From contig JAFTUI010000018.1 in NCBI GenBank assembly GCA_017466345.1, forward strand, positions 1 to 64,000: DNA of 64,000 bases, written 5' to 3'. Below are positions 5,233 to 22,448 of the stretch, piece by piece (within the stretch, counting starts at the first letter, position 1; the number at the start of each line of letters is the position of its first letter). The stretch comes from Tidjanibacter sp. GTDB lineage: Bacteria > Bacteroidota > Bacteroidia > Bacteroidales > Rikenellaceae. The position numbers were made by a program, and so were the translations under genes. Under the pieces are notes generated by a model, which was not told where the DNA came from, did no database searches, and saw only the letters and a list, made by a program, of their open reading frames with translations.

Positions 5233-5241
5233 GTTATAGCG

Positions 5242-5423: not shown

Positions 5424-8297
5424 TTAGAAGGGCATAATACCTCCGTTACCGCCAGAGTTCTCCAATGCATACTGGGCTTCGATGTCATCCTGAGCATCCT
5501 CTGCCTCCTCGCGGTTGTACCAAGCCTCGTGATACTTGTTGTTGGTATCTTTCCAAGCAATCACAACCATACCATCGGTATTCCACGAGGGATCATCTGG
5601 GTCTCTATAATCCCTGCAATAGGTATAATAGCGTGCTGCTACACCACTCTCGGTGAGGGTATTCACACCATAAACTTCACCACTAACCATACCATCTACC
5701 AAAGTGTAGGGAGTGTGTGAAGATAGGTAATCCGTGTTGGTAATCCAAACATATACCTCCGCGGTACCCTCAGCGAAAGTAACATTGAAAGCAACCTGTT
5801 TTGCCTCTTCGCCAAACGAATCAAAGCCATCGATAAGACCTTTATATTCTACGGTGGGTTTACCAAATTCCCAACCCTCATCGTCTTTATAGATGAGTTG
5901 CATAGCCTCGCCAGTGGGAGTATACTCTACATAGTCAGCGTGCGACTGATTGTTGTCCTCATCCATAGCTATCACCAAGATGTGAGCCTTTTGCTGAGGT
6001 GCTGAATAACCATCAATAACGATGGTATTGTCGGTCATCTCATCAACATAGGCAAATGCTGGCCACTCACCAATACTATACATATACTGAGCGGCAGCAA
6101 GTTTAGCCTCGGCTGCTTCGAGCGAACCACCCCAAGTGGAGGTCCATTCGCTATCGCTGATGTATGCATATTTGTAGCGGTATACATTACCGGCACCAGT
6201 TACGGGAACATATACGATTTTGCCATTCTCGCTATTGGTAACCTCGCCAATGGTTACGGTGAGATCTTCGGAATACTCAATATCCTTAGCAGCAAACTCA
6301 GTAACTACAACCTCGCCAAAGTTACCCTCGTTGTCGATAGCCACTGCTGCAACCCAGAACTTCTGACCGGGAGTCAAACTATAATTTTCGACATAGTTAT
6401 CGGGCTTGGTACTACCTTTACCATCTGCCAGAAGTTGCTCAGCGGTGAGATTCTCGGGTTTTTCGAGGTAGAGTTTGTAGTAGGTAGCATAAGCATTCTC
6501 GGTGGTAATGGTAACAGACGCATAACTCATACCTACATCCGACAATGTCATAGTGGGTTTAACTGCGCTACCCGAGCCAGCGGGAGCGGTAGTAAACGAA
6601 GTTACCTTTACATCCTCCAAGGTGTACTCCTCGGGCTGTTTGTCGTTGTCGAGAACAAGGATTGCCAAGTCGTAGGTAGTGCCAGGTTTAATAACCAAAG
6701 GATCATAAGCATCGGGGTCAGCACCGAACTCGAAGAGCGAACCCTCGAAGCGAGTCTCGGTACCCAACCAACCAAGATAGGGTTCACCCCAGCCCCCTTC
6801 GACAGACTGTTTCCAATTCTCAAACTCCTCTTTCCAAGCGTCTTTCTCGCCAAGATAGATGCTGTAACCATCGTAGCCTGCGATACCAACAGCAATCTGA
6901 ACATCGAGAGGAGTACTCTCACCTACCTGCTCAATCTCGTAGCCTGCGTGAACGTAGTCCACCATAACGATATCTTCGGCATAGAGAATAGTATTGTAAT
7001 CATCGTCTACATCATAGAAACCTGCCCAGATTTCATACTCCTGACCAATAACGGGTTTTACGCGGTGACCGGTTTCGCTGTCATTGGGGAAACACTCTCC
7101 CACAAAGCTTTCAACAAGTTCAACAATCTCCACAGCACCATCTACAATCTCATCTGGATCTGCCCAACCACCATAGAATTCTCCACAAGTGTAGCCAAGT
7201 TCGCAGTTGTAATTAACGCACATATCAACGATCTGCTCGGGGGTCATAGCACCCTTAGGCATAATGCCATAGTACATTTTAGCATACTCCTCGCCCCATT
7301 GACCGACAATAGTCTTGTAGTTGCGAATAACAAGAGCAATACCCGTGGTGGTCACATATTCTGATTCGCCAATTTCAGGATTATATACCCAACCAGAAAC
7401 CGTGCGCTCCTCAAAGAGCATCTCGAAGTCTACGCCAAGTTTAACGGTGAGTTTACCAATAACTGCGTGGTTGCCAGCAGAAACACCCAACACCTTGATG
7501 GTTGCTTTCTCGTCTGCCTCGCCAGCTGCAACAGCCTCCTCGGCGGGAGCAGTAACGGTCAGAGCATCGCCGGTGTACTCAACAGCCCAACCTTTGGGAG
7601 TACTAAGCAAAACTGCATCGCTGATAGCCTGTGCCTCAACCTTGAAGGTCTTGGTCTCGCCACCACGGAAGAATGCTGCGTTGCCCGATACGGCAAACTT
7701 GAACTCCTCGGGAAGAGCAACAGTGAACGACTCGCCACCTGCCAGAGTGAAGGTTACAGCGTTGTCCTCAACAACTACGTTGGTAAACAATGCCACCTCG
7801 CCTGCAACAGCTACCCAAGTGTCGCCACCATCGAGCGAAACCTCGGTGCGACCGTCAGCATCCTGGCGAACCTGTGCGTTCTGGTCAACTGCAATTTTGT
7901 TGCCATTGGCATCAACCATTACAACAGCTTTGCCCTCGACAACCTGTGCCCAATAGTAAGTACTCTCTTCCTTAACAACGGTAAGAGCACTATTGGTGGC
8001 GCAAGAAAGGCTCAAAACCTCACCATTGGCAAGAGTAAGCACCCAATTGCCCTCAGCATCCTGCTCGCAAGCCACGACAGCAGCAACGTGCTCCGCCTTA
8101 GCATCGCCAATAAGAGCCTTCAAAGCAGCTACTTCCTCATTCAAGCGAGTCTCCAATGCATCAACACGCTCGGTAAGATCCGAAAGATCAGATTTAATCT
8201 GGTCAAGATCGTCCTGATTACAGGAGGTTGCCAATGTGGCAACACCAACCAATGCTACCAATGCAAGAGTTTTCAAATTGCGGAAAAATCTTTTCAT
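5424..8297 (-). CDS. Large surface lipoprotein, DUF4988/PL29 N-terminal type
   Basis: 957 residues from the ATG at 8297; the longer reading frame upstream lacks a signal peptide at its start and was rejected. MKRFFRNLKTLALVALVGVA leads to the lipobox LATSC, then NQDDLDQ, acidic residues typical of Bacteroidetes surface lipoprotein export. Residues about 25-70 form a predicted coiled coil (DDLDQIKSDLSDLTERVDAL). It is followed by the repeated W-x-L/G-x-x-W-like modules of the DUF4988 / 'PL29 family lyase N-terminal' region, a BACON/Ig-like stretch, and two or more fibronectin-like domains (LTPGQKFWVAAVAIDN). No catalytic lyase domain is recognised, so enzymatic activity is not claimed. Last gene of the minus arm, separated by 185 nt and probably with its own promoter. 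Confidence 0.8.
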   Translation of the reverse strand: MKRFFRNLKTLALVALVGVATLATSCNQDDLDQIKSDLSDLTERVDALETRLNEEVAALKALIGDAKAEHVAAVVACEQDAEGNWVLTLANGEVLSLSCATNSALTVVKEESTYYWAQVVEGKAVVMVDANGNKIAVDQNAQVRQDADGRTEVSLDGGDTWVAVAGEVALFTNVVVEDNAVTFTLAGGESFTVALPEEFKFAVSGNAAFFRGGETKTFKVEAQAISDAVLLSTPKGWAVEYTGDALTVTAPAEEAVAAGEADEKATIKVLGVSAGNHAVIGKLTVKLGVDFEMLFEERTVSGWVYNPEIGESEYVTTTGIALVIRNYKTIVGQWGEEYAKMYYGIMPKGAMTPEQIVDMCVNYNCELGYTCGEFYGGWADPDEIVDGAVEIVELVESFVGECFPNDSETGHRVKPVIGQEYEIWAGFYDVDDDYNTILYAEDIVMVDYVHAGYEIEQVGESTPLDVQIAVGIAGYDGYSIYLGEKDAWKEEFENWKQSVEGGWGEPYLGWLGTETRFEGSLFEFGADPDAYDPLVIKPGTTYDLAILVLDNDKQPEEYTLEDVKVTSFTTAPAGSGSAVKPTMTLSDVGMSYASVTITTENAYATYYKLYLEKPENLTAEQLLADGKGSTKPDNYVENYSLTPGQKFWVAAVAIDNEGNFGEVVVTEFAAKDIEYSEDLTVTIGEVTNSENGKIVYVPVTGAGNVYRYKYAYISDSEWTSTWGGSLEAAEAKLAAAQYMYSIGEWPAFAYVDEMTDNTIVIDGYSAPQQKAHILVIAMDEDNNQSHADYVEYTPTGEAMQLIYKDDEGWEFGKPTVEYKGLIDGFDSFGEEAKQVAFNVTFAEGTAEVYVWITNTDYLSSHTPYTLVDGMVSGEVYGVNTLTESGVAARYYTYCRDYRDPDDPSWNTDGMVVIAWKDTNNKYHEAWYNREEAEDAQDDIEAQYALENSGGNGGIMPF

Positions 8298-8365
8298 AGT
8301 AATTGTGATTAAGTTAATAAAATAAGTGAATTGTGTTTGTTCCAAAAAAACCTCTCTCTGAGCCA

Positions 8366-8482: not shown

Positions 8483-11083
8483 CTATCTGCCACTTGCTTT
8501 GGGGTGCGAAGAGAGTTTCTTATAGTCTATCATCTCCACATTCTTACCCTCTACAAACTCCTCGAAGTTCATAGTGCGAACACCATAGTCAACCTCGGGC
8601 AACTGGCTCGAATGAACGTAGCCCACAGGACGCTCGTGAGCAGTGATAACCTGCTGACGTACACGCTGCATTTCGCTCTTAACAGCAGCAGGAACATCGT
8701 TGGGATAGTAGTATGCAAGGGTGCGGAATTCCTCGTCTGCGTAGATGAGGTGCTCCATAGGTCCGTAGACGGGTGCACCAGCCTCGCCACCAATAGCCAT
8801 ACCGAGTGCTACACACAAGCCATCTGCCCTCTCGGTTATGGATGTTGAATAGCGACTGATACCATAACTCATAATGAAGTTTTCGAAGAGAGTAACGGCA
8901 TCCTTATAGCGCAGTTTGTTGCGGTTGCCCAGGTCGTAAAGTTGTGTCATCGAGCTTCCATCGCACACAGCAGTATACATTTGCATTGCATCCTTAACCA
9001 TTGCAAACGTAAAGAAAGGCTGACCATCGGCAGTGTAATCTCCCGTAATACTCATCTGGGGATCATCGCCACCAATAAGAGGATCGGTGGTAGCACTACC
9101 GAACTTAACCTCGCCAAGCACACCATTCCAGTCCTCTGCCACATAAGCAACAGTGTAAGTGGTGTTGGGATCGTTGATTAGAGTGTAGCTATCCACGCCA
9201 TAGGGCTCGCTCCACCAGTGGTTGACAGGTATCATCTGTGCATTGGTGGGACCTTGGTTGTCACCCTCCTCAAAGAGGAAGTTGATGAAGTCTTCGCGAG
9301 TTGCCTCGTTGTTGGGAGTGGGTACCCACGCCCCATACTCGTAGCCCTCCACAAACTGGAAGTGAATTTTTGCAACCTTTTCGAAATCGTAGGTAAACTT
9401 AACCGTCACCTCCTGGGTGCCCTTGGCTGTGAGTTCCAACACCGCATTCTCCTCACTCGCCTCGGGATTGTCTTTTACAATAGGTTTGGTCTTCACAACA
9501 TCGGTAAATTTCAAAGGAGCAATCTCCTTATACTGGTTCATAGCAGTATAGGCAATAACATACTCCGTATCCGACTCACACGACACCCAAGGCTCCGACA
9601 TTCTATACGAAGAACCCGTAAGTTCGTCTGTGTCGAGATTGTAACCATAGTTCTTATTGCCAAAGCCCCAGCCGTTATCGTAAATATCGCGAGCCAAAAC
9701 AGCCAACTCTTCCTCGCTCTTCTTCTTGACCTCTTCGGCTTCATCTTTGGTATAAACCCTCATTACAGCCGCATTACAGTTGGCTCCCATCTCAACATCG
9801 AGCCAAAATACCGTAGCACCAACGTGCTCTTCATCAATAGTGATAGTTGCCTCGGCATCGAGAGTATTCTCGGGACGTTTGCGCAACGTGAATACCTCGC
9901 TCTCCATTGTCTTTGCAGGGGTATACTGAGCATCCAAACCGATGGTAGTAGCCATAATAGGCACCTCGGGAGAGGCTCCGCTGCCAAAGTTCATATAGAA
10001 TGTGAGTCCCTCCTCATCGCTGGTCGATTTGGGCTCATAGATGGCGTTACGCATAAAGTCTATATAGAGTTTCTCGCCATAGGTGTCAATGTAGGGCTGC
10101 AAATCCGACTCGTTGGAGCACCACTCATAGAAATAATATGCATCGCTATTGGGCTTGTAGTTAAGCTGCATAGCGGTAAAGGATGTCAGCACCTCCATCT
10201 CCACTCTTGGATCGCCTTCGAGGGGGTAGTAGGGTGTGCGAACATAGCAGAGAGTCAAATCGCCCTCAGCAAAGCCATCCTTGTCGAAGCAGCCCACAGC
10301 CGCAATAACATACTCACAATCGGGCACTACCATTGCCTGTGCGTAGGGTGTATTCATCCAATCAAACTCGTGACGCAAGAAATCGTCCATATTGTCTGTG
10401 GAGAAAGTGTAGGCACCCGAGCCCGAATCGTCAAAAATAAAACCGCGAATGAAGCTCTCAACCTGCTCGGCATCCAAAGGAGTATTCATATCCCTGCCGG
10501 CAGCCCTCATACCCTCATAAAGAGAGTTGTAGAGGCGGCAAAGAGGATATACATCCAAGCGATAGGACTGAATGTTTGCGCCAGGAGTGATGGTAAACTT
10601 AAAGTTGTTGGTAAACTTATCAGTCACCTCAATAGTGACACCATCCATACCTCCATAAACGTAGCCAGGAACGTAATCTACGGGAGTAAGGATGTCGGGA
10701 CGCATAATAGGATCGGGTACAACAGTACCTATCAAAGCGTTGCCTCGCTGCTCAATAGAGAGAAGCTCTTTTCTGGTACCCATCGTGAAGGTAATCTCAC
10801 CGTGGCGAAGGTTGTCGTTAGGGTTCTTCGAAACCTCAATTGTCAACACACCTTCGTAGTTTGAGCCGCTCATCATATCGAGCGACACCCACTCGGCACC
10901 CTTAGTAATCTCGGCTGTCCAATCCTCGCTTGCGTAGAAGTCGATGGTCTTGCTATCCGCATTTTGGAGGAATATAAGAGCCTTAGGATTTACCCTCAGA
11001 CCGCTATCGATCTCAGGATCGTTGCACGAAAACATAATTGCGGAACTCAACACCGCAAAGAGTAGCAAAAGTTTTTTCATCAT
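8483..11083 (-). CDS. BACON-domain surface lipoprotein
   Basis: 866 residues (865 if the second of two adjacent Met codons is used). Signal peptide MKKLLLLFAVLSSAIMFSC with lipobox and acidic NDPEID after the Cys, so probably exported to the cell surface. Residues about 28-115 form a BACON domain (Bacteroidetes-associated, putative carbohydrate- or mucin-binding): DFYASEDWTAEI, WVSLDMMSG, LTIEVSKNPND, LLSIEQRG. The rest is several all-beta modules of uncertain family, with patterns such as DTEYVIAYTAMNQY and YTVAYVAEDWNGVLGEVKFG resembling fibronectin-like domains. The latter is also similar to a part of the neighbouring 957-aa lipoprotein. It is 22 nt downstream of the double Omp28-like gene. 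Function unknown; ligand binding at the surface is an inference. Confidence 0.8.
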   Translation of the reverse strand: MMKKLLLLFAVLSSAIMFSCNDPEIDSGLRVNPKALIFLQNADSKTIDFYASEDWTAEITKGAEWVSLDMMSGSNYEGVLTIEVSKNPNDNLRHGEITFTMGTRKELLSIEQRGNALIGTVVPDPIMRPDILTPVDYVPGYVYGGMDGVTIEVTDKFTNNFKFTITPGANIQSYRLDVYPLCRLYNSLYEGMRAAGRDMNTPLDAEQVESFIRGFIFDDSGSGAYTFSTDNMDDFLRHEFDWMNTPYAQAMVVPDCEYVIAAVGCFDKDGFAEGDLTLCYVRTPYYPLEGDPRVEMEVLTSFTAMQLNYKPNSDAYYFYEWCSNESDLQPYIDTYGEKLYIDFMRNAIYEPKSTSDEEGLTFYMNFGSGASPEVPIMATTIGLDAQYTPAKTMESEVFTLRKRPENTLDAEATITIDEEHVGATVFWLDVEMGANCNAAVMRVYTKDEAEEVKKKSEEELAVLARDIYDNGWGFGNKNYGYNLDTDELTGSSYRMSEPWVSCESDTEYVIAYTAMNQYKEIAPLKFTDVVKTKPIVKDNPEASEENAVLELTAKGTQEVTVKFTYDFEKVAKIHFQFVEGYEYGAWVPTPNNEATREDFINFLFEEGDNQGPTNAQMIPVNHWWSEPYGVDSYTLINDPNTTYTVAYVAEDWNGVLGEVKFGSATTDPLIGGDDPQMSITGDYTADGQPFFTFAMVKDAMQMYTAVCDGSSMTQLYDLGNRNKLRYKDAVTLFENFIMSYGISRYSTSITERADGLCVALGMAIGGEAGAPVYGPMEHLIYADEEFRTLAYYYPNDVPAAVKSEMQRVRQQVITAHERPVGYVHSSQLPEVDYGVRTMNFEEFVEGKNVEMIDYKKLSSHPKASGR

Positions 11084-11105: not shown

Positions 11106-12992
11106 TTATTCTGCTAAGTACTTATAGTCCACACTCTCGCCCAAAGGACACACTGCAACGTTATTCACATAGCCGTTTGAGTCTACGGAGAGTGCCATAA
11201 CATACATATTATCCCTATTCCACTCCTCGTTGAGGGTAATGGTATAACTCTTGGTTGCCTCCTGCTCGGCAGCAAGGGTTCCAAGGCTATCGCCCATCCA
11301 GTATTTGCTCACAACAGCCCTCGCAACGTGGTCGTGAGGGTAATCATCGTGGGTTAGTGAGCCATCTTTCTGTGCCGCAACGATACCGTCCTCCACAAGA
11401 AAGACGCTCGCCTTCCACTCCCCCGCAACCTCAGGGAAGAGCGCAACATCAACACTCAGCTCTTCGCCACTAACAGTAGTCGCAATTTTCACATCCGAGC
11501 AAGCAGGATACTCCTCCAACGAGCGTTCGAAACTCGGAGCAATGTTGGCAATATGCTCCGTAAGGCTTCCCGAATCCCTCAGGTCAGTTACAAACATAGG
11601 ATAACCATAGTTGCCATATTTTTTCATTACATCCGAGGTCAGAGCCAAACCCATAGGATCTTCGCCCTGAGTATTGTCGTGCAGTGCCAAAAGATGAACA
11701 ATATCTTTCCACTCCTCTTTTTGAATGTAGAATTTGAGTTTGTTCATACCCTCTGGGCAGAAGCTACACCAAGTGCCCGTAAGGTCCATAACGCAGATAT
11801 GGCGCTCGAAGCGCGAAGAGAGCGCTGGGGCATCTATTGTATTATACTCCACACTACCACCCAGAGGGCACTCAGCACAGTTATTAACAACATAAGAGTT
11901 GCCACCATCATACGACACCATAGCAGCAGCAACAATCCTCATATTATCGAGGTTGCAGCCATCGGGTATCTGCATCGTGCGTTCAACGGTCGTTTCAACA
12001 CCCACCTGCAAATTGGCACCCTCATTGAGAAGTTCGCCATAGGTCTTATCCGACCAAGTTGCCCTAACTACGTTATTGTGGATGTAATCATAGCCGGCAC
12101 CATCTTGGGGGATAGACGACTCCACGCCATCTTCCACCAAGAAAATCTGGTAGCGATATTGCGAAGGGGTGTTGGAAGTAACCTTAACCTTCACTTTAAC
12201 CGCCCTATCGCCTCCTACAACCATAGAACTCTCTATTGCTACACCACAAGTGGCTGGGTAGTTCATCTCTACCCTATCGAGAATATCCACAATGGCGGTA
12301 TACTCGGAAACGGTCGTATATTCGTCACTAATAATAAGATTTGCGTTAAACTGAGGCAAGCCCTGGCGATTGATACACTTATAGTACGAGTCCGACATTG
12401 GAATAGTCATAGGGTCGCTCTTACCAAAATCTCTATGGAATGCCACAGGAATAACTCTATCGGGGAAGTTGGCTTGCACAGACTTTAATGAGGTAGCCAA
12501 ATCGGGGCACGAAGAGCAACCTACCGAAGTGAATTGGAAGCCGAGAATTTTCTGTATCCACTCCCTTGTCTCGCCATCTGCCACACCCGACACAGCCACA
12601 ACCTCCACCTCGTTATCGGAGTAGTACTGCCCCGCGCGATAGAACTCTGCTTTGAATGTGTATGTTCCAGGGATGGTGGTCGAGAAAGTATTTACTCCAT
12701 AGTTCATAAGTTTCTCGTTACCATCAATGGTGCGTGTCAGTTGGAGCGTGCGGGCATTGCTAACATCCTCGCTTCCAAACATTACCGTAAATGTAACCAC
12801 ATCGCTACCATCGGCAGTTATAGAGGTCTTGTCGGCAAAAATTCTCAGCACACCCTCTGGGACATTTTGCGTTGGATCCGTAGGGTCAATTATTGGCTCT
12901 GCTGGCTCATCGGGCTGACCGTGACACGAAACAAAGATTGCCGCGCCTATCATCGCCAATGCAATGGTTATATATCGGGTTATCTTTTTCAT
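11106..12992 (-). CDS. Double Omp28-like lipoprotein with two thioredoxin-fold CxxC sites
   Basis: 628 residues. Signal peptide and lipobox ending FVSC (Cys 23), then an acidic, Pro-rich linker (PDEPAEP). An Ig-like N-terminal domain (about 45-135) precedes two Omp28-type thioredoxin-fold units. The first has CSSC at about 159-162 (SVGCSSCPDL), the second CSFC at about 409-412 (TGTWCSFCPEGM). Each unit is followed by a beta domain with the recurring pattern FLVEDGV/I, HNNVVRA or HDHVARA, and NCAECPLGGSVEY or VAVCPLGESVDY, which shows internal duplication. P. gingivalis Omp28 is the family prototype. Redox activity is inferred from CxxC. It is 14 nt from the gene upstream of it in the operon. 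Confidence 0.85.
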   Translation of the reverse strand: MKKITRYITIALAMIGAAIFVSCHGQPDEPAEPIIDPTDPTQNVPEGVLRIFADKTSITADGSDVVTFTVMFGSEDVSNARTLQLTRTIDGNEKLMNYGVNTFSTTIPGTYTFKAEFYRAGQYYSDNEVEVVAVSGVADGETREWIQKILGFQFTSVGCSSCPDLATSLKSVQANFPDRVIPVAFHRDFGKSDPMTIPMSDSYYKCINRQGLPQFNANLIISDEYTTVSEYTAIVDILDRVEMNYPATCGVAIESSMVVGGDRAVKVKVKVTSNTPSQYRYQIFLVEDGVESSIPQDGAGYDYIHNNVVRATWSDKTYGELLNEGANLQVGVETTVERTMQIPDGCNLDNMRIVAAAMVSYDGGNSYVVNNCAECPLGGSVEYNTIDAPALSSRFERHICVMDLTGTWCSFCPEGMNKLKFYIQKEEWKDIVHLLALHDNTQGEDPMGLALTSDVMKKYGNYGYPMFVTDLRDSGSLTEHIANIAPSFERSLEEYPACSDVKIATTVSGEELSVDVALFPEVAGEWKASVFLVEDGIVAAQKDGSLTHDDYPHDHVARAVVSKYWMGDSLGTLAAEQEATKSYTITLNEEWNRDNMYVMALSVDSNGYVNNVAVCPLGESVDYKYLAE

Positions 12993-13006: not shown

Positions 13007-14101
13007 TTACTCATTAACAGCATAATCTACCGAGGAGCCTGCGGCGCAGATGTTGGCATTATCCACCATCTGCTCGTTGTGAGCCAGCACCACCACCTTG
13101 CAGTTTGCGGGATTAAACTCAATACCGCCAAAGGCAGGAACCGATATATTGAAGGTCTTGCTATACTCCTCGCCCGCTTCGAGAGTCACTTTACTCTCAT
13201 CGGACATACCCAAGAAGTTACTCGAAACAGCCTGAACAACATCGTGGTAAATATCCTCCATACCACCATTCGAGGGCTGATTGTCTGCCAGCACTGCCCA
13301 AGCAATGTCAAAAGTGCCTGCTTTATCTGCCTTGATAGATGCCTCAATAACACCCGTACCATCGGCATTGATCTGAGCCTTAGCTATCTTTACGCCACAG
13401 TTGGAGGGATATTTAACCATAAAGGCGTGCAGGTAGCTATTGATAGCGGAGGCTGCGCTTTCACCATATCCAAAAGCCAAATCATATACTGCATAGGGGA
13501 AACCAGGTGCACCATATCTACCACCCAACCAGTTACCCAAGTCGTTACCGTCAGAGAGTGGCAATGCATAGGGGTCAGTAGCGTTTGGGCTGGATCCGTG
13601 GCAAGCCAAAACAATAACATTTTCGACATACTTACCATTACGCACTTTATTCAATGCCTCGGTCATCTGGGGGCAGTAGCCACACCAAGTACCCGTACAT
13701 TGATAGATGCACACCTTCTGTGCATATTTCTCATATTTAGCCCTATTCTGCACCGTAACAGTTGCTGTATTTTCGGTTTTAGCACCCTTTACAGTAGCAT
13801 AGAATGTGTAAACACCGTTGGTAATGGAGGTAAAAGTGCGCTCTTTACGCGCGAGATACTCGCCCGTCTCTTCGTTGACGAAATAGATTTTGCTGGAAAT
13901 CGAAGGGTCTGCCGTAAGGTCGTTGCCATTCTCGTCTTTAACCGTGAAAGTTGCGTAATCGACACCATTGGCTTCGATAGTATCCTTATCTACCGAAACG
14001 GTAAAGACACTACCATACACAACTTCGTCTTCGCTGTTGGTGTCACAACCAATGGCAGCCATCATCGCAAGGGCTGCAAGAAGCAATTTATGAAATTTCA
14101 T
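13007..14101 (-). CDS. Omp28-like thioredoxin-fold lipoprotein
   Basis: 364 residues. Lipobox AAIGC (Cys 19) followed by DTNSEDE, a surface-export type acidic tail. Residues about 30-120 form an Ig-like domain (VSVDKDTIEANGVDYATFTV, also seen in the 628-aa neighbour as FADKTSITADGSDVVTFTV). A thioredoxin fold follows, with CTGTWCGYCPQM (CGYC at 140-143), FPYAVYDL containing the cis-Pro region, and the C-terminal beta domain ending ICAAGSSVDYAVNE. Extra Cys at 131 and 135 lie just before the CxxC. It sits 39 nt after the beta-barrel gene in the same operon, so an exchange partnership with that barrel is a reasonable inference. Confidence 0.87.
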   Translation of the reverse strand: MKFHKLLLAALAMMAAIGCDTNSEDEVVYGSVFTVSVDKDTIEANGVDYATFTVKDENGNDLTADPSISSKIYFVNEETGEYLARKERTFTSITNGVYTFYATVKGAKTENTATVTVQNRAKYEKYAQKVCIYQCTGTWCGYCPQMTEALNKVRNGKYVENVIVLACHGSSPNATDPYALPLSDGNDLGNWLGGRYGAPGFPYAVYDLAFGYGESAASAINSYLHAFMVKYPSNCGVKIAKAQINADGTGVIEASIKADKAGTFDIAWAVLADNQPSNGGMEDIYHDVVQAVSSNFLGMSDESKVTLEAGEEYSKTFNISVPAFGGIEFNPANCKVVVLAHNEQMVDNANICAAGSSVDYAVNE

Positions 14102-14140: not shown

Positions 14141-15757
14141 TTAAAAAGAGGTTGAAATTGTGAGGTTACCACCCGTATAGGCGGGCATCGGGCGGCACAC
14201 GCCACCAGAGCATACCATACCTCCTCGGTTTCGACCATAGCTAAGTGCCACGCGAGTGCGGCCCTCGGTATAGCTGAAACCCGCATTGTAGTAGTGGATG
14301 CCCGTAGAGCCGTGGTTGAACATATCGCTCACAAAGAGGCTCCACGAGGGGGCAAAATTGACCTCCAAAAGTGCCGACATCCAATCCTTCTTATCCTCAA
14401 ATGTAACCAAATACGCCAACTCGGCACGAGTGGAGAATGTGGGTGTGAACTTATACAACAAGTCGGCAACTACGATATTAGAAAGCCAAGTGCCCTTACC
14501 CACACCGTGCGAGTGGTTATACTCCTGCATCGCATAGAGCAGTTGCATCTTGAACTTGCGACTCAGTTGTTTCTCCACACCAACATTGATATTGCGCCAC
14601 AAGAGCGTCTTAGGCATCCACGAGCCCTCCTCGGCGAGGTTGTAGTAGGTCGAGAAGTTCAGATTGACCTTCATACCCCTCTTGCCGCCGAGTGCAGTTC
14701 CGCGTTTGAAGTTGTAGTAGATGTCGAGTTGTCCACCAATCTCGCCACTATTGACGTGTCCACCTACGGTCGTTCCGGGCTGAGGAATATAGGGGTTGAG
14801 GTTGGTAATTGCGTAGGAATACTGTGCACAAAGTGCAGGCAAGTAGTTCAAAGCATTATTGGTTTCCGAAGAGCCATAGGACACCTTCGACTCCATCCAC
14901 TCCATCCTACGACCCGTAAGGTTTATGCCCAATCCGCCACCGCTATACGACAACTCCAAAAGTTGTGCGTTGGCACGTTTCACCACATTGGTCTTGTTGT
15001 CGATGATGTAGTTGGGATTAGTGTGGATTTTATCTCCGCCATCAACCCACTCAGCCTTAGCAATAAAGCCTCCCGACTCGAAGTTCATTCGTGCCGACCA
15101 GCCAATGGTAGAGGGGCTTGCGCCCGACTCCTCGGCATTGATATTGATAGGCTCATAGCGTTGCAGCAGCGAGCCCTCCAACGATAGGTTTACACCCGAA
15201 AGTCCCACAAGAGAGGAGAGCGACAGCGAGCCATCCAAGCCCCTCACCTGAGTCTTCTCGAAAGGTTCCATACCGAGGCGAGGTGCGCCCCAGAGAGCCT
15301 TCAACGAGGCGATATTCTTGTAGCGGTAGGCAACCCTGGCACCCATCATTGCGGTATTGACGCCAAGTGTGCGATCCTCGTAGGTGCGGAAGAGCAGACC
15401 GCTACCGAATTGGTCGTAGAAAGTACCCGCCGTAACATCAAAAGCACCATCCGACCACTGCATATAGTAGTTCGTAAGGCGAGCACCTTCAAGATTGGAG
15501 GGGTAGCCGATAAGCGCAGGTTGGTATGCCTCCAACTGCACGCCTGCCGAGAAATTACCGTTGTAATAGTCGGCTTTGAGGTAGTTGTTGCTGGCAAAGT
15601 TACCATCGGGACGCTGTGCGTTGGTCACTGCGTCTTCGGCATAGACGATGGTATTACTCTCGTAGGAGCCAACCAAATATCCCTTGTTGTCGTTCTGAGC
15701 AACAGCCCACTGAGCCGAAGCGGCTACCAACGTGAGGATAAGTGCAAGTTTTTTCAT
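14141..15757 (-). CDS. DUF6029-like outer-membrane beta-barrel protein
   Basis: 538 residues with a cleavable signal (MKKLALILTLVAASAQWAVAQ) and no lipobox Cys. It is rich in alternating hydrophobic/aromatic strands (GSYESNTIVYAED, NNYLKADYYNGNFSAGVQLEAY, YEDRTLGVNTAMMGARVAYRY) and ends in Phe (TISTSF), typical of outer-membrane barrels. I assign it to the DUF6029-type family by overall look; the family name is from memory. Near the C-terminus is GMVCSGGVCRPMPAYTGGNL, with Cys at about 516 and 521; the same motif occurs in the paralogue at 19562. It is flanked by a TlpA-like thioredoxin 44 nt upstream and an Omp28-like lipoprotein 39 nt downstream. Its exact function is unknown. Confidence 0.82.
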   Translation of the reverse strand: MKKLALILTLVAASAQWAVAQNDNKGYLVGSYESNTIVYAEDAVTNAQRPDGNFASNNYLKADYYNGNFSAGVQLEAYQPALIGYPSNLEGARLTNYYMQWSDGAFDVTAGTFYDQFGSGLLFRTYEDRTLGVNTAMMGARVAYRYKNIASLKALWGAPRLGMEPFEKTQVRGLDGSLSLSSLVGLSGVNLSLEGSLLQRYEPININAEESGASPSTIGWSARMNFESGGFIAKAEWVDGGDKIHTNPNYIIDNKTNVVKRANAQLLELSYSGGGLGINLTGRRMEWMESKVSYGSSETNNALNYLPALCAQYSYAITNLNPYIPQPGTTVGGHVNSGEIGGQLDIYYNFKRGTALGGKRGMKVNLNFSTYYNLAEEGSWMPKTLLWRNINVGVEKQLSRKFKMQLLYAMQEYNHSHGVGKGTWLSNIVVADLLYKFTPTFSTRAELAYLVTFEDKKDWMSALLEVNFAPSWSLFVSDMFNHGSTGIHYYNAGFSYTEGRTRVALSYGRNRGGMVCSGGVCRPMPAYTGGNLTISTSF

Positions 15758-15801: not shown

Positions 15802-16284
15802 CTACTGCAACTTTTTAATCTGCTCGAAGAGCTCATACTCGCCACCGGGGGTATAGCCTGTGTGCGAATAGACAATCTTGCCATCTTTGTCTACAACATA
15901 TACCTGAGGTGTAAACTGTACATTCATAGCCCTTTTGAAGTCGCCATTTTTGTCATATACGAGGGTGTAGTCGCTCCAACCGTGACCTTCGGCGAGCGAG
16001 CGAGCCTGTGCTGTAAAACGAGCGTCATCGGTCGAAACAGCAACAACACGGAAGTTAGCCTCCTCAATCCAATCGGGATAGAGCTCAGCGATAGCGTCCA
16101 ACTCGCGGATGCAAGGTTTGCAGGTCACAGCCCAGAAGGAGATAATCATAGGGGTCTCGCCATCGACCAACTCCGAGGTGTTGAATACTTTGCCTTTGCC
16201 ATCCTCAACTTTAACCGAGGGGATTTGTGCCATTGCAACCGAAGTAACGAGCAGCGCGAGAGCCGCAAAAATGAGTTTTTTCAT
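15802..16284 (-). CDS. TlpA-like periplasmic thioredoxin
   Basis: 160 residues. Signal peptide MKKLIFAALALLVTSVAMAQ, then a TlpA/ResA-type thioredoxin fold: SFWAVTCKPCIRELDAIAELY with CKPC at 55-58, VVAVSTDD, and the cis-Pro loop QFTPQVYVVDKDGKIVYSHTGYTPGGE. No lipobox, so probably soluble in the periplasm. First gene of the minus arm, 130 nt after a consensus promoter. Such proteins usually reduce or exchange disulfides of exported partners; the co-transcribed CxxC lipoproteins and the Cys-bearing barrel are candidate partners (inference). Confidence 0.92.
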   Translation of the reverse strand: MKKLIFAALALLVTSVAMAQIPSVKVEDGKGKVFNTSELVDGETPMIISFWAVTCKPCIRELDAIAELYPDWIEEANFRVVAVSTDDARFTAQARSLAEGHGWSDYTLVYDKNGDFKRAMNVQFTPQVYVVDKDGKIVYSHTGYTPGGEYELFEQIKKLQ

Positions 16285-16415
16285 AGTTCAAAAAAGATTT
16301 TTTATTGGTTATGTTTTTTGTTTGTTTTTGTCTTGTTTGTGGCGTGCCTGCAATTGCGTATTATCCTTAGCGTTCATACTACTTTCGACACAAAAGCAAC
16401 ACTCCTATTATCACG

Positions 16416-16446
16416 CAAAAATATAAATAAATTTATATTCTGCAAA
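16416..16446 (-). promoter_or_regulatory. Consensus promoter of the minus-arm operon
   Basis: Minus strand TTTG (16443-16446), 19 nt, TATTTTTG (16416-16423), matching TTTG-N19-TAnnTTTG. It predicts a leader of about 125 nt before the TlpA-like gene. Confidence 0.75.
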
Positions 16447-16562
16447 CATTCACACCCATATTTGCTCAAATAAACACATCTGACATAGGCAACATTTCTA
16501 TGCCGCAAAACGACATAGCGAGAGTTGGTGGCAAAAAATAGATTTAGAGAGTGTGGAGAGTA

Positions 16563-16591
16563 TTGCAATTTGAAAAAAAATGCGTATATTG
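16563..16591 (+). promoter_or_regulatory. Weak candidate promoter of the plus-arm operon
   Basis: TTG (16563-16565), 19 nt, then TATATTG (16585-16591). The final bases deviate from TAnnTTTG, so this is only the best available match before the gene at 16686. Confidence 0.35.
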
Positions 16592-16685
16592 TCCCCGATT
16601 TGTATACTCATTGTTGGCAAGTCAAATGGAAAGGAAAATAACCGCAAAAAAATAATTTAACTAACCTTTTTATTTACAAAAATTT

Positions 16686-19445
16686 ATGAAAAATTTATTC
16701 AGATTAGCGACTCTTCTCCTGGCGTTTGCAACGCTGGGTTTTGTTGGTTGCGAGGACCCCGACACTGATTGGATCGGCGAAGATGGTGTTGGCATCAAAG
16801 CCACGTTTAAGTCTTCGACCACTAAGACTGCAACTCTCGAAGTGCAGACCGTAGGTTTGAGCAAAATTGCTTGGATTGCCAAACCCGCCGAGGAGAAAGC
16901 TCCTGCACCTGTGTTCGTTTTCAAAAACGGTAGCCAGATGGATGTAACCGATGGTACGCACACCGTTGAAGTTAAACAACTCAGTGCAAACACCACCTAC
17001 ACCGTCTACTTTGCTGGCGAAACTACTGCCACAGCAGACCTTAGCGACTTGTACACATTGCAGAATGTCAAGACAACCGACTTCGACACAGATGGTGTAA
17101 CTGTCCGCGAGGTTTTGTACGATGGACTTATCCTCGACATCAAAGTTCCTGAGAGCGTGAAGGAGCAAGACCACCTTATCAAATGGTCTACTACCGACCT
17201 CTACCTCTACAATAGGAATAAAATCGGCACTCACGGTACTCAGCCCGATACCGACCTGATGAACTGGAACGATAGCAAGGCAGGTTGGAAACATATGTAT
17301 TTCAACAGTAGCACTACGCTTCACCTTACAGAGATGAACTCGTACGCCGTTGACGAGAACGGCAATACGAACACCAAATACCACTACTACGAGACTCTTG
17401 TTCCCGGTCAACCTCAGGTTTTCATACTCGGTGAGTATGAGTTTGGTCAGGATATGGGCAGCGGCTGGGGCTGGGGCTACTACGAGCCTTTGTTCGACCG
17501 CGCAGCTTGGTCGAGTGCATTGGCTAAGAACGGTGGCGAGCTCGTTGACGAGACTCCTTTCTGGGATGGTATGTACACCCATATGCTCGTTAAGACCAAA
17601 GAGCCTGAGAAATTGCCTGACGAGCTGATGAAGGTAGAACTCGACATCCGCCCAGATGACGCCATCATTGATGTAACCGTAGACGACAGCATCGAAGTTT
17701 TACAGGTGATGGTACTTGACGAGGAACAGCACGCGATTGCGTACAAGTGGCTCGGCGAGAGCTACGAACACTTCCAGTGGTTTGCAACTTCGTATGTTGG
17801 TCTGATGGAAGGTGCAACTGATTTCTATACGCGTAGTAAGGGCGATGGTAGTAAACCTTACATCAATGAAAACGGTAGATTTAGGACTGCCCTTAGTAAA
17901 TACCTCATCAATGTAAGTATGACCTCGAAATACTGGGTATATGTTGTAGGTGTTAGCGGCTACGATGAGGAGGGCTATATGAACGGTAGCAAGCAGGTTT
18001 GCTGGAGTATGAATGGCTTCAACCTCAAAGAGACCACCAAACCCGCGCCCACCGTTGAGGTAACACCTGTTGAACCTCTCGAACCCAACAAGGCTTACTA
18101 CAAGATATTCTGCCCCAGCGCTGCCGAGGGCAATGGCGTAACCAAAGGCTACTATTACGCTGGATATGAGAAGGATTGGCTTTCGTCAGGTATGACCGCA
18201 CAGGAGATCATTGACACCTATGCCTGGGGTAATACAATTGTCCAGTTCACACAAAACGACCTCGATCTGATCAATACAGATGGTCTGATTATTGATTTCC
18301 CCTCGCGTCCCAACGAGAACTTCTATTTTGCAACAGTATTTACAAATGACGAGGGTAGTCGCAACTACTCCGATGCGGTAGTATGCCGCACCTACGAGAC
18401 TCCCGTAGATAGGGTTGAGAGTGAGTACTTCGAGAGACTCAAAGGCGATTGGACTGCAAGTGCAACCGTTCGCTTCAAGAAACTCAAACCTGGCGTTGAT
18501 ACCGAAGATGATTCCCTCACTACGGATGATTTGTACGAGGAGCACACCAAGACTCACACCTGCACCATCACCGTTGGCGATGCAGAGTATCCCGAATCTC
18601 TCAACGAGAGTGTATACGAAACATACGAGAAACACGGTATAAGTCGCGAGAAGACCGACCTCTATTTCTCGGAGTTCTGCAAAGCAGTGGATCTGTTCAA
18701 CGAGACCAACCGCGCACAGAACCGTATCCTCGTGAATGGCTTTAACTTCGCAGGCGAGATGCTCGAATACCTCCCCTACTTCAACTTCCAGAGTGCATAC
18801 GACCTCTTCATTTCGGACACCTACAATGGCGTAAGCCACACTATGCCCGTATATGACTTCGGTCCTAAGTGGTTCTTTGAGGTTATGGCTGACGGTAGTC
18901 TTGCAGTACCTTTCAACACCGTCTACTACGCACCTATGGGTAGCTGGTACGTAGACTCGTTCTACGGTCAGCAGGAAATTCACTTGATTGCTTACGAGCC
19001 CACCACCTCCGGTGCAGCAGGCTACGTTGGAAAAGGTAGTACCGGCTACTTCCCCGTGGAGATCTCGGAAGATGGCAACACCATCACTATCAAGCCCTAC
19101 GAGAATGCTGAACTACCTGGCTATAAGTACTATCCCAACGTAGGTGTTTACAACCAGTTGGATCCTACATCCTACAGTATGTCTATGTATATCATCTCGG
19201 AGATTACCCTCACTCGTGGTGCTGCCGCAGAGCCTGCTCGCGTGGCTGCTAAGGGTGGCAAGGCAGTAGCTCCCGTAGAGATGAAGGTTGAGGCAAAGAA
19301 CGGCATTAAGACCGCCATCCGTCCCCGCACTCCCGGTATCTTTGACGAGAGCGACAGGGTTGAGATGTCTGGTCCTTGCAAAGACCTCACTCCCGAGCAG
19401 AAACACGAGAGGTGGATTAAGGAGCGTATGAGTATCCGCAAATAA
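16686..19445 (+). CDS. Large surface lipoprotein heading the plus arm
   Basis: 919 residues. MKNLFRLATLLLAFATLGFVGC is a lipoprotein signal with Cys 22, followed by EDPDTDW, an acidic surface-export type sequence. It is composed of beta-rich modules. Residues about 130-460 (VPESVKEQDHLIKW, STTLHLTEMNSY, LVPGQPQVFILGEYEFG, VTVDDSIEVLQVMVLDE, HFQWFATSY) have clear counterparts in the LRR lipoprotein at 43675. The C-terminal third contains a domain with YKYYPNVGVYNQL and ends in a basic, Lys/Arg-rich tail (HERWIKERMSIRK), unusual for a surface protein. Gene family not recognised. A hairpin separates it from the following barrel gene. Role unknown; likely a surface partner of the barrel/Omp28-like pair. 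Confidence 0.8.
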   Translation: MKNLFRLATLLLAFATLGFVGCEDPDTDWIGEDGVGIKATFKSSTTKTATLEVQTVGLSKIAWIAKPAEEKAPAPVFVFKNGSQMDVTDGTHTVEVKQLSANTTYTVYFAGETTATADLSDLYTLQNVKTTDFDTDGVTVREVLYDGLILDIKVPESVKEQDHLIKWSTTDLYLYNRNKIGTHGTQPDTDLMNWNDSKAGWKHMYFNSSTTLHLTEMNSYAVDENGNTNTKYHYYETLVPGQPQVFILGEYEFGQDMGSGWGWGYYEPLFDRAAWSSALAKNGGELVDETPFWDGMYTHMLVKTKEPEKLPDELMKVELDIRPDDAIIDVTVDDSIEVLQVMVLDEEQHAIAYKWLGESYEHFQWFATSYVGLMEGATDFYTRSKGDGSKPYINENGRFRTALSKYLINVSMTSKYWVYVVGVSGYDEEGYMNGSKQVCWSMNGFNLKETTKPAPTVEVTPVEPLEPNKAYYKIFCPSAAEGNGVTKGYYYAGYEKDWLSSGMTAQEIIDTYAWGNTIVQFTQNDLDLINTDGLIIDFPSRPNENFYFATVFTNDEGSRNYSDAVVCRTYETPVDRVESEYFERLKGDWTASATVRFKKLKPGVDTEDDSLTTDDLYEEHTKTHTCTITVGDAEYPESLNESVYETYEKHGISREKTDLYFSEFCKAVDLFNETNRAQNRILVNGFNFAGEMLEYLPYFNFQSAYDLFISDTYNGVSHTMPVYDFGPKWFFEVMADGSLAVPFNTVYYAPMGSWYVDSFYGQQEIHLIAYEPTTSGAAGYVGKGSTGYFPVEISEDGNTITIKPYENAELPGYKYYPNVGVYNQLDPTSYSMSMYIISEITLTRGAAAEPARVAAKGGKAVAPVEMKVEAKNGIKTAIRPRTPGIFDESDRVEMSGPCKDLTPEQKHERWIKERMSIRK

Positions 19446-19475: not shown

Positions 19476-19511
19476 ATTCAGAAACCCCTCTATGAGCAGG
19501 GGTTTCTGAAT
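19476..19511 (+). terminator. Inter-cistronic hairpin
   Basis: Perfect 14-bp inverted repeat (arms 19476-19489 and 19498-19511) with an 8-nt loop, then CGCGTGTTTT. The T-run is weak and displaced, so it may be a partial terminator or an mRNA-stabilising end between the lipoprotein and barrel genes. Confidence 0.65.
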
Positions 19512-19561
19512 CGCGTGTTTTAGGACACAAACAACACAAATCGCATTAGAAAACAGACAGA

Positions 19562-21211
19562 ATGAAGCGACTGACTATAACCTTGCTGGCACTCGCCGCA
19601 ACAACCGCCCTCAGTGCACAAATAAAGCTCGGAGGGGGCAACTTGACAGGTAGCTTGGAGTCCAACTCCATCTACTACCTTGACGATGCTGCGTTGGGCG
19701 ACAAGAAGATACCTTTCGGCTCGAACGACTACCTCAAACTCGCCTACTACAACGGGCGTTGGAGCGCAGGTCTGCAAGGCGATGCCTATCTGCCCGCACT
19801 TGTGGGTTATGACGACATCCGCAACCTCAAAGCCGACCCAACCTTCGCACTCACACAGCTCTTCGTGAACTATCGTGGCGATTGGTATGACATCACGGTT
19901 GGCGATTTCTTCGAGCAGTTCGGTAGCGGCTTGGTATATCGTAGTTTCGAGGATAGACAACTCGGCTTCAACAGCGCAACGCAAGGTCTGAGGTTTACCG
20001 CCTCGCCCACCGAGTGGCTCGCACTGAAAGCCTTCTATGGTCGTCCCCGATTGGCTGTGATAGACTACTCCACAGCGTGGATTGGCGGCTTGGACGCAAG
20101 CGTCAATGTGGGTTCGCTCTTGAAGTGGCAGGAGGCTATGCTGATGGTGGATGGTAGTTATGTCAATCGCTATCAGGCTCTCGACTTGGAGGGTAGCGAG
20201 AACAGCTTAGGTATTAGCATATTCCCCGCTGGCTTCGAGACTCCTATGACTCATCTCTACTCGGCTCGTGGCTCGTTCGACTGGAATGGTCTGAGTGTGA
20301 AGGGCGAGTATGTGGGCAAATCGTTGGACCTTAGCGATAGGAGTTCGGAACCCTCAAAAGGTAGTGCACTATTGGGCGAGGTTTCCTACACCGTTGGCAA
20401 GTTCAACATTATGGTGCAGGCTCGTATGATTGAGAATATGGGTACACGCCTTTCGCTCTACGATATTCCAGTAGAGGGAGCGTTTGGTGGCTACGACTAC
20501 CTCTCGCCTCTGAGCAATACGCTCAACTACATCCCCGCTCTGACACGTCAGCACACCTATATGCTCGCAAACCTCGAACCACATCAGGTTAATACCCACA
20601 GTGAGTTCGCGGCTCAGGCAGACGCTTACTACTCCATCCGTCACAAGAAAGATCGCCGCAACTTCTGGCGCTTCCACCTGAACGCTTCGATGGCACAGAA
20701 CACCGAAACCAACAACCTCACTTGGCTCGATGTGAATGTAGATGTAGAGCGTCAGTGGAACAAGAATTGGAAGGCTACGTTTATGTACTCGTTGCAGAAA
20801 CGCAATCCCAATAAGGGTTTTAACGACCAAATTTATACCTCTAATATATTTGTGGCAGACGTAACACACAAACTCAGCACCAAGAACTCTCTGCGTGCCG
20901 AGTTGCAATACCTCTACTCCAACGACTATGAGGGCGACTGGATGGGTGCACTCGTGGAGTTCAATATGGCTCCTCGGCTGAGCATCTTTGTGAGCGATAT
21001 GTACAACCACCAGAGGGTAAAAACCGGTGATTGGGCGCAGGAAGAAGAGAAATTACACTATTACAGCATAGGTGCAAGCTACACCATCGACCGCACAAGG
21101 GTACAACTCTCCTATGGTCGCAACCGTGCAGGTATGATATGTTCGGGTGGCGTTTGCCGCTACACTCCTGCCTACACAGGTTTCAATCTCCTGCTCAGCA
21201 CCTCGTTCTAA
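19562..21211 (+). CDS. DUF6029-like outer-membrane beta-barrel protein, second copy
   Basis: 549 residues, paralogue of the gene at 14141. Signal MKRLTITLLALAATTALSAQ without lipobox. Shared motifs in the same order: GSLESNSIYYLDD, NDYLKLAYYNGRWSAGLQGDAYLPALVGY, FFEQFGSGLVYRSFEDRQLGFNSATQGLR, ALKAFYGRPRL, LNYIPALTRQHTYMLANLEP, and the C-terminus RTRVQLSYGRNRAGMICSGGVCRYTPAYTGFNLLLSTSF in segments. Cys at about 527 and 532. It ends in Phe as outer-membrane barrels do. It is followed 55 nt later by an Omp28-like lipoprotein, repeating the barrel-then-Omp28 order of the minus arm. Function unknown. Confidence 0.82.
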   Translation: MKRLTITLLALAATTALSAQIKLGGGNLTGSLESNSIYYLDDAALGDKKIPFGSNDYLKLAYYNGRWSAGLQGDAYLPALVGYDDIRNLKADPTFALTQLFVNYRGDWYDITVGDFFEQFGSGLVYRSFEDRQLGFNSATQGLRFTASPTEWLALKAFYGRPRLAVIDYSTAWIGGLDASVNVGSLLKWQEAMLMVDGSYVNRYQALDLEGSENSLGISIFPAGFETPMTHLYSARGSFDWNGLSVKGEYVGKSLDLSDRSSEPSKGSALLGEVSYTVGKFNIMVQARMIENMGTRLSLYDIPVEGAFGGYDYLSPLSNTLNYIPALTRQHTYMLANLEPHQVNTHSEFAAQADAYYSIRHKKDRRNFWRFHLNASMAQNTETNNLTWLDVNVDVERQWNKNWKATFMYSLQKRNPNKGFNDQIYTSNIFVADVTHKLSTKNSLRAELQYLYSNDYEGDWMGALVEFNMAPRLSIFVSDMYNHQRVKTGDWAQEEEKLHYYSIGASYTIDRTRVQLSYGRNRAGMICSGGVCRYTPAYTGFNLLLSTSF

Positions 21212-21266
21212 CGACCAAAAGTGAAAGAATTTATAACGATTAAAAACAACCAAATACCTTTTAGAA

Positions 21267-22448
21267 ATGAAATTTTTGAAATTTATTGCAGCCGCAGTTT
21301 TTGCTCTCGCAATGGTGGCTTGCGGTGACGAACCCACCAACACTCCCGTTGAGAAATCGCCTTTCAGGATGGAGGTAAGCAGCAATTTCGTGCAGATTGG
21401 TGTTGACCACGCATATTTCTTGGTATATCTCGATGAAGAACTCGTTGACCCCGCCGAGCTTACATTCTACGATGAGAATGATGAGGAGGTGGAGATGACT
21501 ACCCTCGAAATAGAGATTGATGGCCAAACCGTGACCGTTCCTGAGTGGGCACCTACCGAGCCCACCACCAAATCGTTCTGGGTGTCGTATAAAACCTACT
21601 TCACCAAAGAGCTAATCACTATTACAGCAGTAGACTTTGCATTCCCCGATAGTATGGAAGACCCTCAGCCCAACAATGTATCGTTCAAAAAACGCACATT
21701 CTTCACTCAGTTCACCGGTGCGGGTTGTGGCTATTGTCCCTGGGCAAAAGCTGCCCTTTATGAGGCTGCCGCAGATGAGGCCTACGCTGACAAATTTGTA
21801 GTTGCAGCAATCTACACATACGATGGACAAAACTCCAAGCTCTACCCTACGGAAAATGGGGATATTTCAACTGCATTTGGTGTAAGCAGCTACCCTACCG
21901 TAATCTATGATATGATGGGTTCGTTCAGCTACGAAAGGGTAGATAAAGACTACGTCAGTGTAAAAGCCGCTATTGACAACACGCAGCAGCAGGAGGCAAA
22001 AGCAGGTATCGCTGTAAATGTCGCAAGTGACGAGGGCGACACCTTCGTGGCTCGCGTATCTGTTAAGGCTGCTGTGGATGGCGAATACAATGTTGGTGCT
22101 TGGCTCGTAGAGGATGGTATAAAAGAGAAACAGGCCAATAATGGATGTGGATACCCTATGGACTTTGACAACCACAACAACGTACTCCGTTATGCTGATA
22201 GTGGCAAGAAGTACATCGGTCACTCGCTTGGCGCAATGAAGGCTGGCGAGATCAAAGACCACGTCTTCACTATGAACTTCTTCAAGGGTACATACAACAA
22301 AGATGGTAAAGAAGTCAAGGCTCCTTGGGTAAAGGAGAATTGTCGCCTTATCGTCTTCGTAACAACCAGCGTCAGAGGTAGTGCATACGTTACCAACGTG
22401 GTAGCAAATGATATTTACAGTGAGTCAATTGCGTTTGACTACAAGTAG
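21267..22448 (+). CDS. Omp28-like thioredoxin-fold lipoprotein, plus arm
   Basis: 393 residues. Lipobox LAMVAC (Cys 19), then GDEPTNTPVEK. An N-terminal Ig-like domain (about 30-125) includes DHAYFLVYLDEELVDPAEL. The thioredoxin-fold part begins KKRTFFTQFTGAGCGYCPWAK with CGYC at about 154-157 and contains VSSYPTVIYDM with the expected Pro. The C-terminal beta domain has WLVEDGIKEKQANNGCGY and HNNVLRYADSGK, matching the FLVEDG.../HNNVVRA pattern of the 628-aa minus-arm protein. It ends the plus arm; a strong terminator follows. Likely surface-anchored; redox partner of the adjacent barrel is an inference from context and CxxC. Confidence 0.87.
   Translation: MKFLKFIAAAVFALAMVACGDEPTNTPVEKSPFRMEVSSNFVQIGVDHAYFLVYLDEELVDPAELTFYDENDEEVEMTTLEIEIDGQTVTVPEWAPTEPTTKSFWVSYKTYFTKELITITAVDFAFPDSMEDPQPNNVSFKKRTFFTQFTGAGCGYCPWAKAALYEAAADEAYADKFVVAAIYTYDGQNSKLYPTENGDISTAFGVSSYPTVIYDMMGSFSYERVDKDYVSVKAAIDNTQQQEAKAGIAVNVASDEGDTFVARVSVKAAVDGEYNVGAWLVEDGIKEKQANNGCGYPMDFDNHNNVLRYADSGKKYIGHSLGAMKAGEIKDHVFTMNFFKGTYNKDGKEVKAPWVKENCRLIVFVTTSVRGSAYVTNVVANDIYSESIAFDYK

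Follow-up and report, generated by a model that had tools for sequence, protein, structure and literature searches.

Two DUF6029 barrel and thioredoxin modules at a divergent locus of a gut Tidjanibacter: a candidate outer-membrane thiol-disulfide system of Bacteroidota

Layout of the locus

The 64,000-nt stretch analysed here (the window: positions 1 to 64,000 of contig JAFTUI010000018.1, assembly GCA_017466345.1) belongs to a gut bacterium, Tidjanibacter sp., whose genome amounts to 1.82 Mb in 30 contigs and is 95.6% complete. Between positions 5424 and 22448 it encodes two divergent arms, each with a DUF6029 outer-membrane beta-barrel followed by an Omp28-type lipoprotein that has a thioredoxin-like region; the minus arm begins with a TlpA-type thioredoxin. 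The genes for barrel, Omp28 and TlpA belong together as a module: they are neighbours in other genomes across the phylum, TlpA and barrel can be fused in a single protein, and the barrels share an invariant pair of closely spaced cysteines. The refuting condition named in an earlier reading of the sequence, that the genes would not lie side by side elsewhere, does not hold. This core composition, its conservation and the invariant dithiol are firmly supported. As to their meaning, chances seem about even that the locus encodes, in duplicate, an outer-membrane thiol-disulfide module of Bacteroidota-wide occurrence to which large lipoproteins have been added in gut Bacteroidales. The whole suggests cell-surface thiol chemistry by an undescribed route.

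The window had been read before from its letters and open reading frames (ORFs), and for the layout this sequence-only reading stands: an ORF check of the window found all of its frames in place; the gap between the arms, put at 400 nt, measures 401 nt (16285-16685); the barrel-then-Omp28 order and the minus-arm extras (TlpA and a double Omp28) are present; CGYC can be read in both single Omp28 proteins; and acidic residues follow the lipobox cysteine in every lipoprotein of the locus. Starting at 16284 and ending at 5424, the minus arm runs TlpA, barrel (BARm), Omp28-like protein, double Omp28 and two large lipoproteins (LPb, then LPa), and the plus arm, from 16686 to 22448, a large lipoprotein (LPc), barrel (BARp) and Omp28; BARp has no adjacent TlpA of its own. 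The features are:

5424..8297, minus strand: LPa, large lipoprotein, most likely starting at the ATG at 8297 rather than the TTG at 8408; no Pfam family above cut-off
8483..11083, minus strand: LPb, large lipoprotein with a BACON domain (PF13004, E 7.1e-9)
11106..12992, minus strand: double Omp28 lipoprotein, two thioredoxin-Omp28 units with CSSC and CSFC (PF11551, E 2.1e-54, in two stretches)
13007..14101, minus strand: Omp28-like lipoprotein, N-terminal Ig-like region and thioredoxin-like region with CGYC (Pfam, NCBIfam, blastp)
14141..15757, minus strand: BARm, DUF6029 outer-membrane beta-barrel (PF19494), C-terminal CSGGVC at residues 516-521
15802..16284, minus strand: TlpA/ResA-like thioredoxin with signal peptide and CKPC, first gene of the minus arm (Redoxin/AhpC-TSA match in Pfam)
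16285..16685, no strand: common divergent gap with a Bacteroidota-type promoter-like site (16446-16416, minus strand)
16686..19445, plus strand: LPc, large lipoprotein without a family match in Pfam
19562..21211, plus strand: BARp, DUF6029 outer-membrane beta-barrel (PF19494, E 5.3e-153), CSGGVC at residues 527-532
21267..22448, plus strand: Omp28 lipoprotein with a thioredoxin region, CGYC (PF11551, E 8e-26)

Linkage of barrel, TlpA and Omp28 across Bacteroidota

In an even sample of 296 genomes from across the phylum, DUF6029 was found in 80 and PF11551 in 62, with both in 58 (Fisher p 4e-38, uncorrected for shared ancestry). Barrel neighbourhoods were taken from 66 of the 80 genomes (67 barrels; the window's own genome and 13 with weak matches were set aside), from 20 further loci of relatives and from 80 named loci (the best 80 of 554), making 178 barrels including those of the window. 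Barrels were collected from all reading frames, as antisense ORF overlaps otherwise drop some of them.

TlpA immediately precedes 142 of the 178 barrels on the same strand, at a distance of no more than 700 nt. It is divergent for five; another three barrels are cut by a contig end, and the remaining 28 lack TlpA in that position. Ten of these 28 sit as second barrels beside one that does have TlpA upstream, and four more (L068, L072, L192, L208) have TlpA close by elsewhere. An Omp28 thioredoxin protein with CxxC occurs within 3 kb of 151 barrels (24 have none, and three are at a contig end), the nearest copy being downstream on the same strand in 98 cases, upstream and divergent in 37, upstream on the same strand in 13 and downstream on the opposite strand in three. 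The Omp28 counts come from a domain-limited profile; a first profile gave 160 of 178, having drifted onto C-terminal tails common to other proteins.

Taken by sample, a TlpA that is fused or no farther than 1.5 kb away and an Omp28 within 3 kb accompany 59 and 51 of the 67 barrels of the phylum sample (both, 45), 16 and 24 of 25 in relatives (both, 15), 75 and 74 of 84 at the named loci (both, 65), and one and two of the two in the window (both, one). The density of TlpA is 0.254 per kb within 1 kb of a barrel vs. 0.000-0.011 per kb past 3 kb, a drop of more than 20-fold, and that of Omp28 is 0.215 vs. 0.002-0.026 per kb, a drop of 8- to 100-fold. At five loci (L063-L067) TlpA is divergent from the barrel rather than upstream on the barrel strand.

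The cysteine pair of the barrel

The assignment of both window barrels to DUF6029, made in the sequence-only reading, is borne out by PF19494 matches with E 2.2e-173 and 5.3e-153 (578 and 511 bits against a cut-off of 27, over profile positions 1-538). An AlphaFold model of the barrel is confident (pTM, the predicted template modelling score, 0.87) and has about 24 strands, spanning residues 27-537. Its nearest structural match is the FimD/PapC usher pore, at 11% identity, and it also matches porins and exporters. A sequence profile of the barrel searched against the PDB returned only RecA rows, none with a passing stretch, and Pfam gave only DUF6029 and a sub-threshold LptD trace.

Near the C-terminus of both window barrels is a CSGGVC motif that had escaped the earlier reading. 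This CxxGxC hairpin is placed before the last barrel strand. Its C516, G519 and C521 are among only 8 invariant columns in an alignment of 65 barrels reaching down to 15% identity (the two of the window and 63 of the 67 sampled; the four not used were the fusion, a near-copy and two broken frames). Whole-genome family searches found C-x4-C in the last 70 residues of 130 of 132 distinct barrels, the other two being a frame break and a truncated frame, and 93 of the 132 have no further cysteine past the first 25 domain residues; the 80 named loci, collected partly via a pattern containing the motif, are omitted from this count. The exact CxxGxC is present in 176 of all 178 barrels, a set partly collected with the motif. 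It is kept in all 27 barrels lacking TlpA within 1.5 kb, which argues against a strict need for that TlpA. The most conserved columns fall mainly on the putative outer loops and outer strand halves (35 of 40, vs. 295 of 474 overall; hypergeometric p 2.4e-4).

The thioredoxin partners

A profile of the TlpA orthologues matches PDB entries 2m72 (PG_2175; E 7.9e-60) and ResA (E 2.4e-28). It was rebuilt after a first version had matched barrels by way of a fused protein. CxxC is present in all 173 matches, and W51, C55, C58, D86, D111, P126 and G147 are invariant in 29 chosen rows. The active-site residues of the window's TlpA are intact. The CxxC, the cis-Pro position and the family profile place the protein in the TlpA/ResA family; since NCBIfam cut-offs were not reached, no subfamily is assigned.

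At one locus (L043, genome G292), a single ORF of 667 residues comprises a full TlpA (CVPC) and then a full barrel. The second of the two genomes examined from this genus carries the same fusion, which makes a sequencing error improbable. Among the 178 barrels there is no further TlpA-barrel fusion, and the fused frame is found in only those two of 43 matching genomes of the family; a 1055-aa (amino acid) frame in G483 gave a match below cut-off.

The plus-arm Omp28 and the double Omp28 belong to PF11551 (91 and 184 bits, cut-off 34.9), the latter in two stretches, 11133-11627 and 11853-12392. PF11551 was not called for the single minus-arm protein (13007-14101), in which Pfam finds an Ig-like Invasin_D3 domain and a weak thioredoxin match, and which reaches 25.6 bits against NCBIfam lipoprot_Omp28 (cut-off 150). 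It is nonetheless named Omp28-like here because blastp shows kinship to both Omp28 proteins (to the double one, 28% identity, E 9e-16). CxxC is at its expected position in 239 of 240 unselected Omp28-domain matches. In an alignment of 41 rows, T21, P81 and G189 are invariant, with the proline in the cis-Pro place; as these rows were picked for CxxC, the invariance of their cysteines proves nothing. The Omp28 and TlpA profiles align with each other from CxxC to the cis-Pro region (hhalign probability 95.9), so that both partners of the barrel resemble catalytic thioredoxins, and in the PDB the Omp28 profile matches Omp28 (2r2c; E 2e-24) and HBP35 (5y1a; E 2e-20), the HBP35 alignment covering positions 7-236 of 244. 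The plus-arm protein by itself has a weak match to the HBP35 thioredoxin region (E 0.0073). As to surface-export signals of the K-(D/E)2 or SDDDD-like kind, at least two D or E residues lie within nine residues past the lipobox cysteine in 128 of 154 Omp28 rows, counted per domain, with some lipoboxes misparsed and no background set.

A possible selenoprotein link, raised by an NCBIfam Omp28_seleno match that led to two rows with in-frame stops, was rejected: L077 and L044 keep an intact CxxC in the reading taken. Contig C30 of the window's genome (L035/L103), on which DUF6029 is unmatched, has an extra Omp28-family gene (380-aa frame) followed by an 809-aa predicted lipoprotein.

Origin of the two arms

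The repeated order had been taken to suggest a duplication of one module, either inverted or independently assembled. A local inverted duplication does not hold; independent assembly fits better. The two barrels are only 37% identical, and in a 53-row tree they fall into separate clades, each with support of 100/100: BARp among barrels of its own family, whose deepest member (L134) still has TlpA, and BARm among barrels from Tidjanibacter, Phocaeicola coprocola and other Bacteroidales. On the tree and the identity, the arms are thus separate barrel lineages. The nearest named relative of BARm, among the best 80 of 554 listed, is in a Tidjanibacter metagenome-assembled genome (79% identity). 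Five further genomes of the genus (L135-L139) also have the divergent barrel pair.

Of the large lipoproteins, LPa and LPb accompany BARm-type barrels, and LPb homologues are found no more than 4 kb from a barrel in further gut Bacteroidales, including Phocaeicola coprocola (L158). LPc homologues adjoin a BARp-type barrel in seven relatives, and lie farther from barrels of the other type in six more loci. The term "island" used earlier therefore suits the doubling and the large lipoproteins, which are local, and not the core module, which is widespread. Four other loci of gut Bacteroidales (L160, L165, L167, L168) have a tandem pair on one strand, in the order TlpA, barrel, lipoprotein, lipoprotein, barrel, Omp28s, lipoproteins; this arrangement is a second solution to barrel doubling.

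Proposed function and alternatives

The window's genome encodes one DsbD_TM protein (673-aa frame), and the VKOR and DsbB families were not found in this single, 95.6% complete genome. This favours a reductive system, other oxidases being possible, and the module is probably reductive. TlpA, barrel and Omp28 likely work together in exchanging thiols at the outer membrane, where they may constitute a relay or a redox gate; the sequence-only reading has thiol/disulfide proteins of the surface fed through or at the barrel, as they may be. In outline, DsbD would supply electrons to the periplasm, where TlpA would pick them up at the barrel's inner mouth. The cysteine hairpin, on the outer side, would work as a relay or redox switch and exchange thiols with the Omp28 lipoprotein, which is probably at the surface and would do the same with disulfide proteins outside the cell or co-encoded ones. 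In gut lineages, substrate such as disulfide-rich glycoproteins might be delivered by the large lipoproteins, including those with BACON. In its full form, a relay across the outer membrane from DsbD-fed TlpA through the CxxGxC hairpin to a surface Omp28 that reduces disulfides outside the cell, this scheme is tentative and on balance doubtful, the direction of electron flow, the passage through the membrane and the final substrate being its most uncertain steps. If it is true, Bacteroidota can reduce extracellular disulfides, which in gut species would be those of glycoproteins from host or diet that the co-encoded lipoproteins hold.

Several observations weigh against a thiol-disulfide module. 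Eight of the 67 barrels in the phylum sample keep CxxGxC although no TlpA lies closer than 1.5 kb; one of the eight, L073, is next to a contig end. PF11551 is missing from 22 of the 80 genomes with DUF6029; 19 of the 22 belong to one family (f24) with divergent barrels, and in the fetched loci of this family the strict Omp28 profile finds nothing, the looser first profile alone giving matches. The hairpin appears to lie on the outer half of the barrel, as judged from strand parity rather than coordinates. A structural disulfide would yield an equally invariant cysteine pair. The model of the fused protein has a pTM of 0.75, vs. 0.87 for the barrel alone, so TlpA is not confidently docked to the barrel. 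Finally, the accessible text of one report proposes, from HHpred similarity, that DUF6029 is a polysaccharide-secretion barrel (PMC9603273). A Wzi/AlgE-type export barrel with the operon thioredoxins as bystanders seems very improbable, however, given a linkage to two thioredoxin-fold proteins far above background.

An invariant, closely spaced cysteine pair with glycine in the turn, a TlpA gene or domain immediately upstream or fused, and a large-barrel model with porin and exporter matches would all suit a role in assembly or maintenance as well: CxxGxC would be a structural disulfide, TlpA a dedicated maturation enzyme and the barrel an ordinary porin or exporter. Dsb enzymes are known to mature LptD, which provides an analogue. 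Such an arrangement would leave the equally linked, thioredoxin-type Omp28 unexplained, the pair is kept in barrels with no adjacent TlpA, and DsbD without a VKOR or DsbB match makes a reductive role easier; this explanation is conceivable, if rather unlikely. The match of the Omp28 profile to HBP35 over positions 7-236 brings in haem or metal uptake, with Omp28 as a surface haem-binding thioredoxin of HBP35 type, the barrel as a passive channel and TlpA reducing the cargo or a partner. HBP35 is a haemin binder that supports growth under haemin shortage, according to the available portion of its description (PMC2907840), but is the only relative with such data among those encountered, and uptake of this kind looks improbable.

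Comparably improbable is a protein translocon, an usher-sized pore that would export the co-encoded lipoproteins, with TlpA keeping it reduced and the cysteine hairpin as its gate. DUF6029 is unmatched in 216 of the 296 genomes, whereas surface lipoproteins are general in the phylum; an equal pore size says nothing about function, and the plug and periplasmic domains of ushers are absent. An accessory role in the type IX secretion system (T9SS) was considered and rejected: SprA (TIGR04189) is unmatched in the window's genome and in G230, both of which have DUF6029, and its absence from the former indicates that the module does not need this system.

To our knowledge, bacterial thiol relays described so far stop at the inner membrane and periplasm. 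A conserved outer-membrane barrel whose dithiol is invariant and which synteny and fusion connect with thioredoxins would allow a direct test of how, or whether, Gram-negative bacteria control disulfides at their surface. A thiol-disulfide module, if correct, would also provide a function for DUF6029 and Omp28 (80 and 62 of the 296 genomes), families with little literature among the papers searched.

Other features of the window

The promoter-like site in the gap points to the minus arm. It was found with a Bacteroidota-type motif; the window has six such sites, vs. a mean of 0.84 and a maximum of four in shuffled sequences. Scanning the gap for sigma-70 sites gave a result close to chance (three found, 1.6 in shuffles), and there were no Rfam matches above gathering scores in 5000-23000.

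Upstream of the locus, a plus-strand ORF of 638 aa (2319-4235) looks by eye like a dehydroquinate dehydratase-EPSP synthase fusion and is followed at 4238 by an apparent chorismate synthase, likewise recognised by eye. Beyond the locus are a protein combining a patatin phospholipase with an Omp85-type barrel domain (28548-30776, plus strand), a 1093-aa outer-membrane barrel with CarboxypepD_reg and OMP_b-brl_4 (30882-34160, minus strand) and a 945-aa BspA-type leucine-rich-repeat protein (43507-46341, plus strand).

Comparison with known systems

The sequence-only reading knew of no described system of this composition, and none was found in the accessible parts of the literature searched, the scope of which excluded most subscription journals. 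The available text of a paper on the Bacteroidota outer-membrane barrel assembly machinery does not contain the words thioredoxin, disulfide or Omp28 (PMC12578637), and in that of another a trypsin-binding T9SS protein is termed Omp28-related (PMC9477747).

The barrel model shares the 24-strand pore of the FimD/PapC ushers, but differs in having no plug, N- or C-terminal domains and no usher profile match in Pfam, in its invariant cysteine hairpin, and in sequence. SusC/SusD is an outer-membrane barrel-lipoprotein pair in Bacteroidota. In this and similar pairs, as here, a barrel gene adjoins that of a probable surface lipoprotein; the DUF6029 barrel differs in lacking a TonB plug or CarboxypepD_reg match in Pfam, and its partner is thioredoxin-like. 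The DsbD/CcdA-ResA-TlpA pathways have in common with the module a ResA/TlpA-type thioredoxin, and DsbD is present in the window's genome; Etrx2, an exposed pneumococcal thioredoxin, is also among the PDB matches of the TlpA profile. Known pathways of this type end at the inner membrane or at Gram-positive surfaces, and none is known to have an outer-membrane barrel.

Further parallels are in Porphyromonas gingivalis. HBP35 (5y1a), like the module's Omp28 a match of the Omp28 profile, is a surface thioredoxin whose activity is lost when its two active-site cysteines are mutated, by the part of the report available (PMC2907840). It differs in being a single protein, on the surface with a conserved C-terminal domain, and its abstract mentions neither barrel nor TlpA. 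The top PDB match of the TlpA profile, PG_2175 (2m72), is a solved thioredoxin; in the accessible text of two papers PG2173 is an Omp28 lipoprotein (PMC9722745) and PG2174 an uncharacterised protein of outer-membrane vesicles (PMC4335976). The available text of the papers found under these names draws no link among the three. From its locus number, between PG2173 and PG_2175, we infer that PG2174 is the DUF6029 barrel. If the module is what is proposed here, P. gingivalis proteins so far solved or detected singly become connected.

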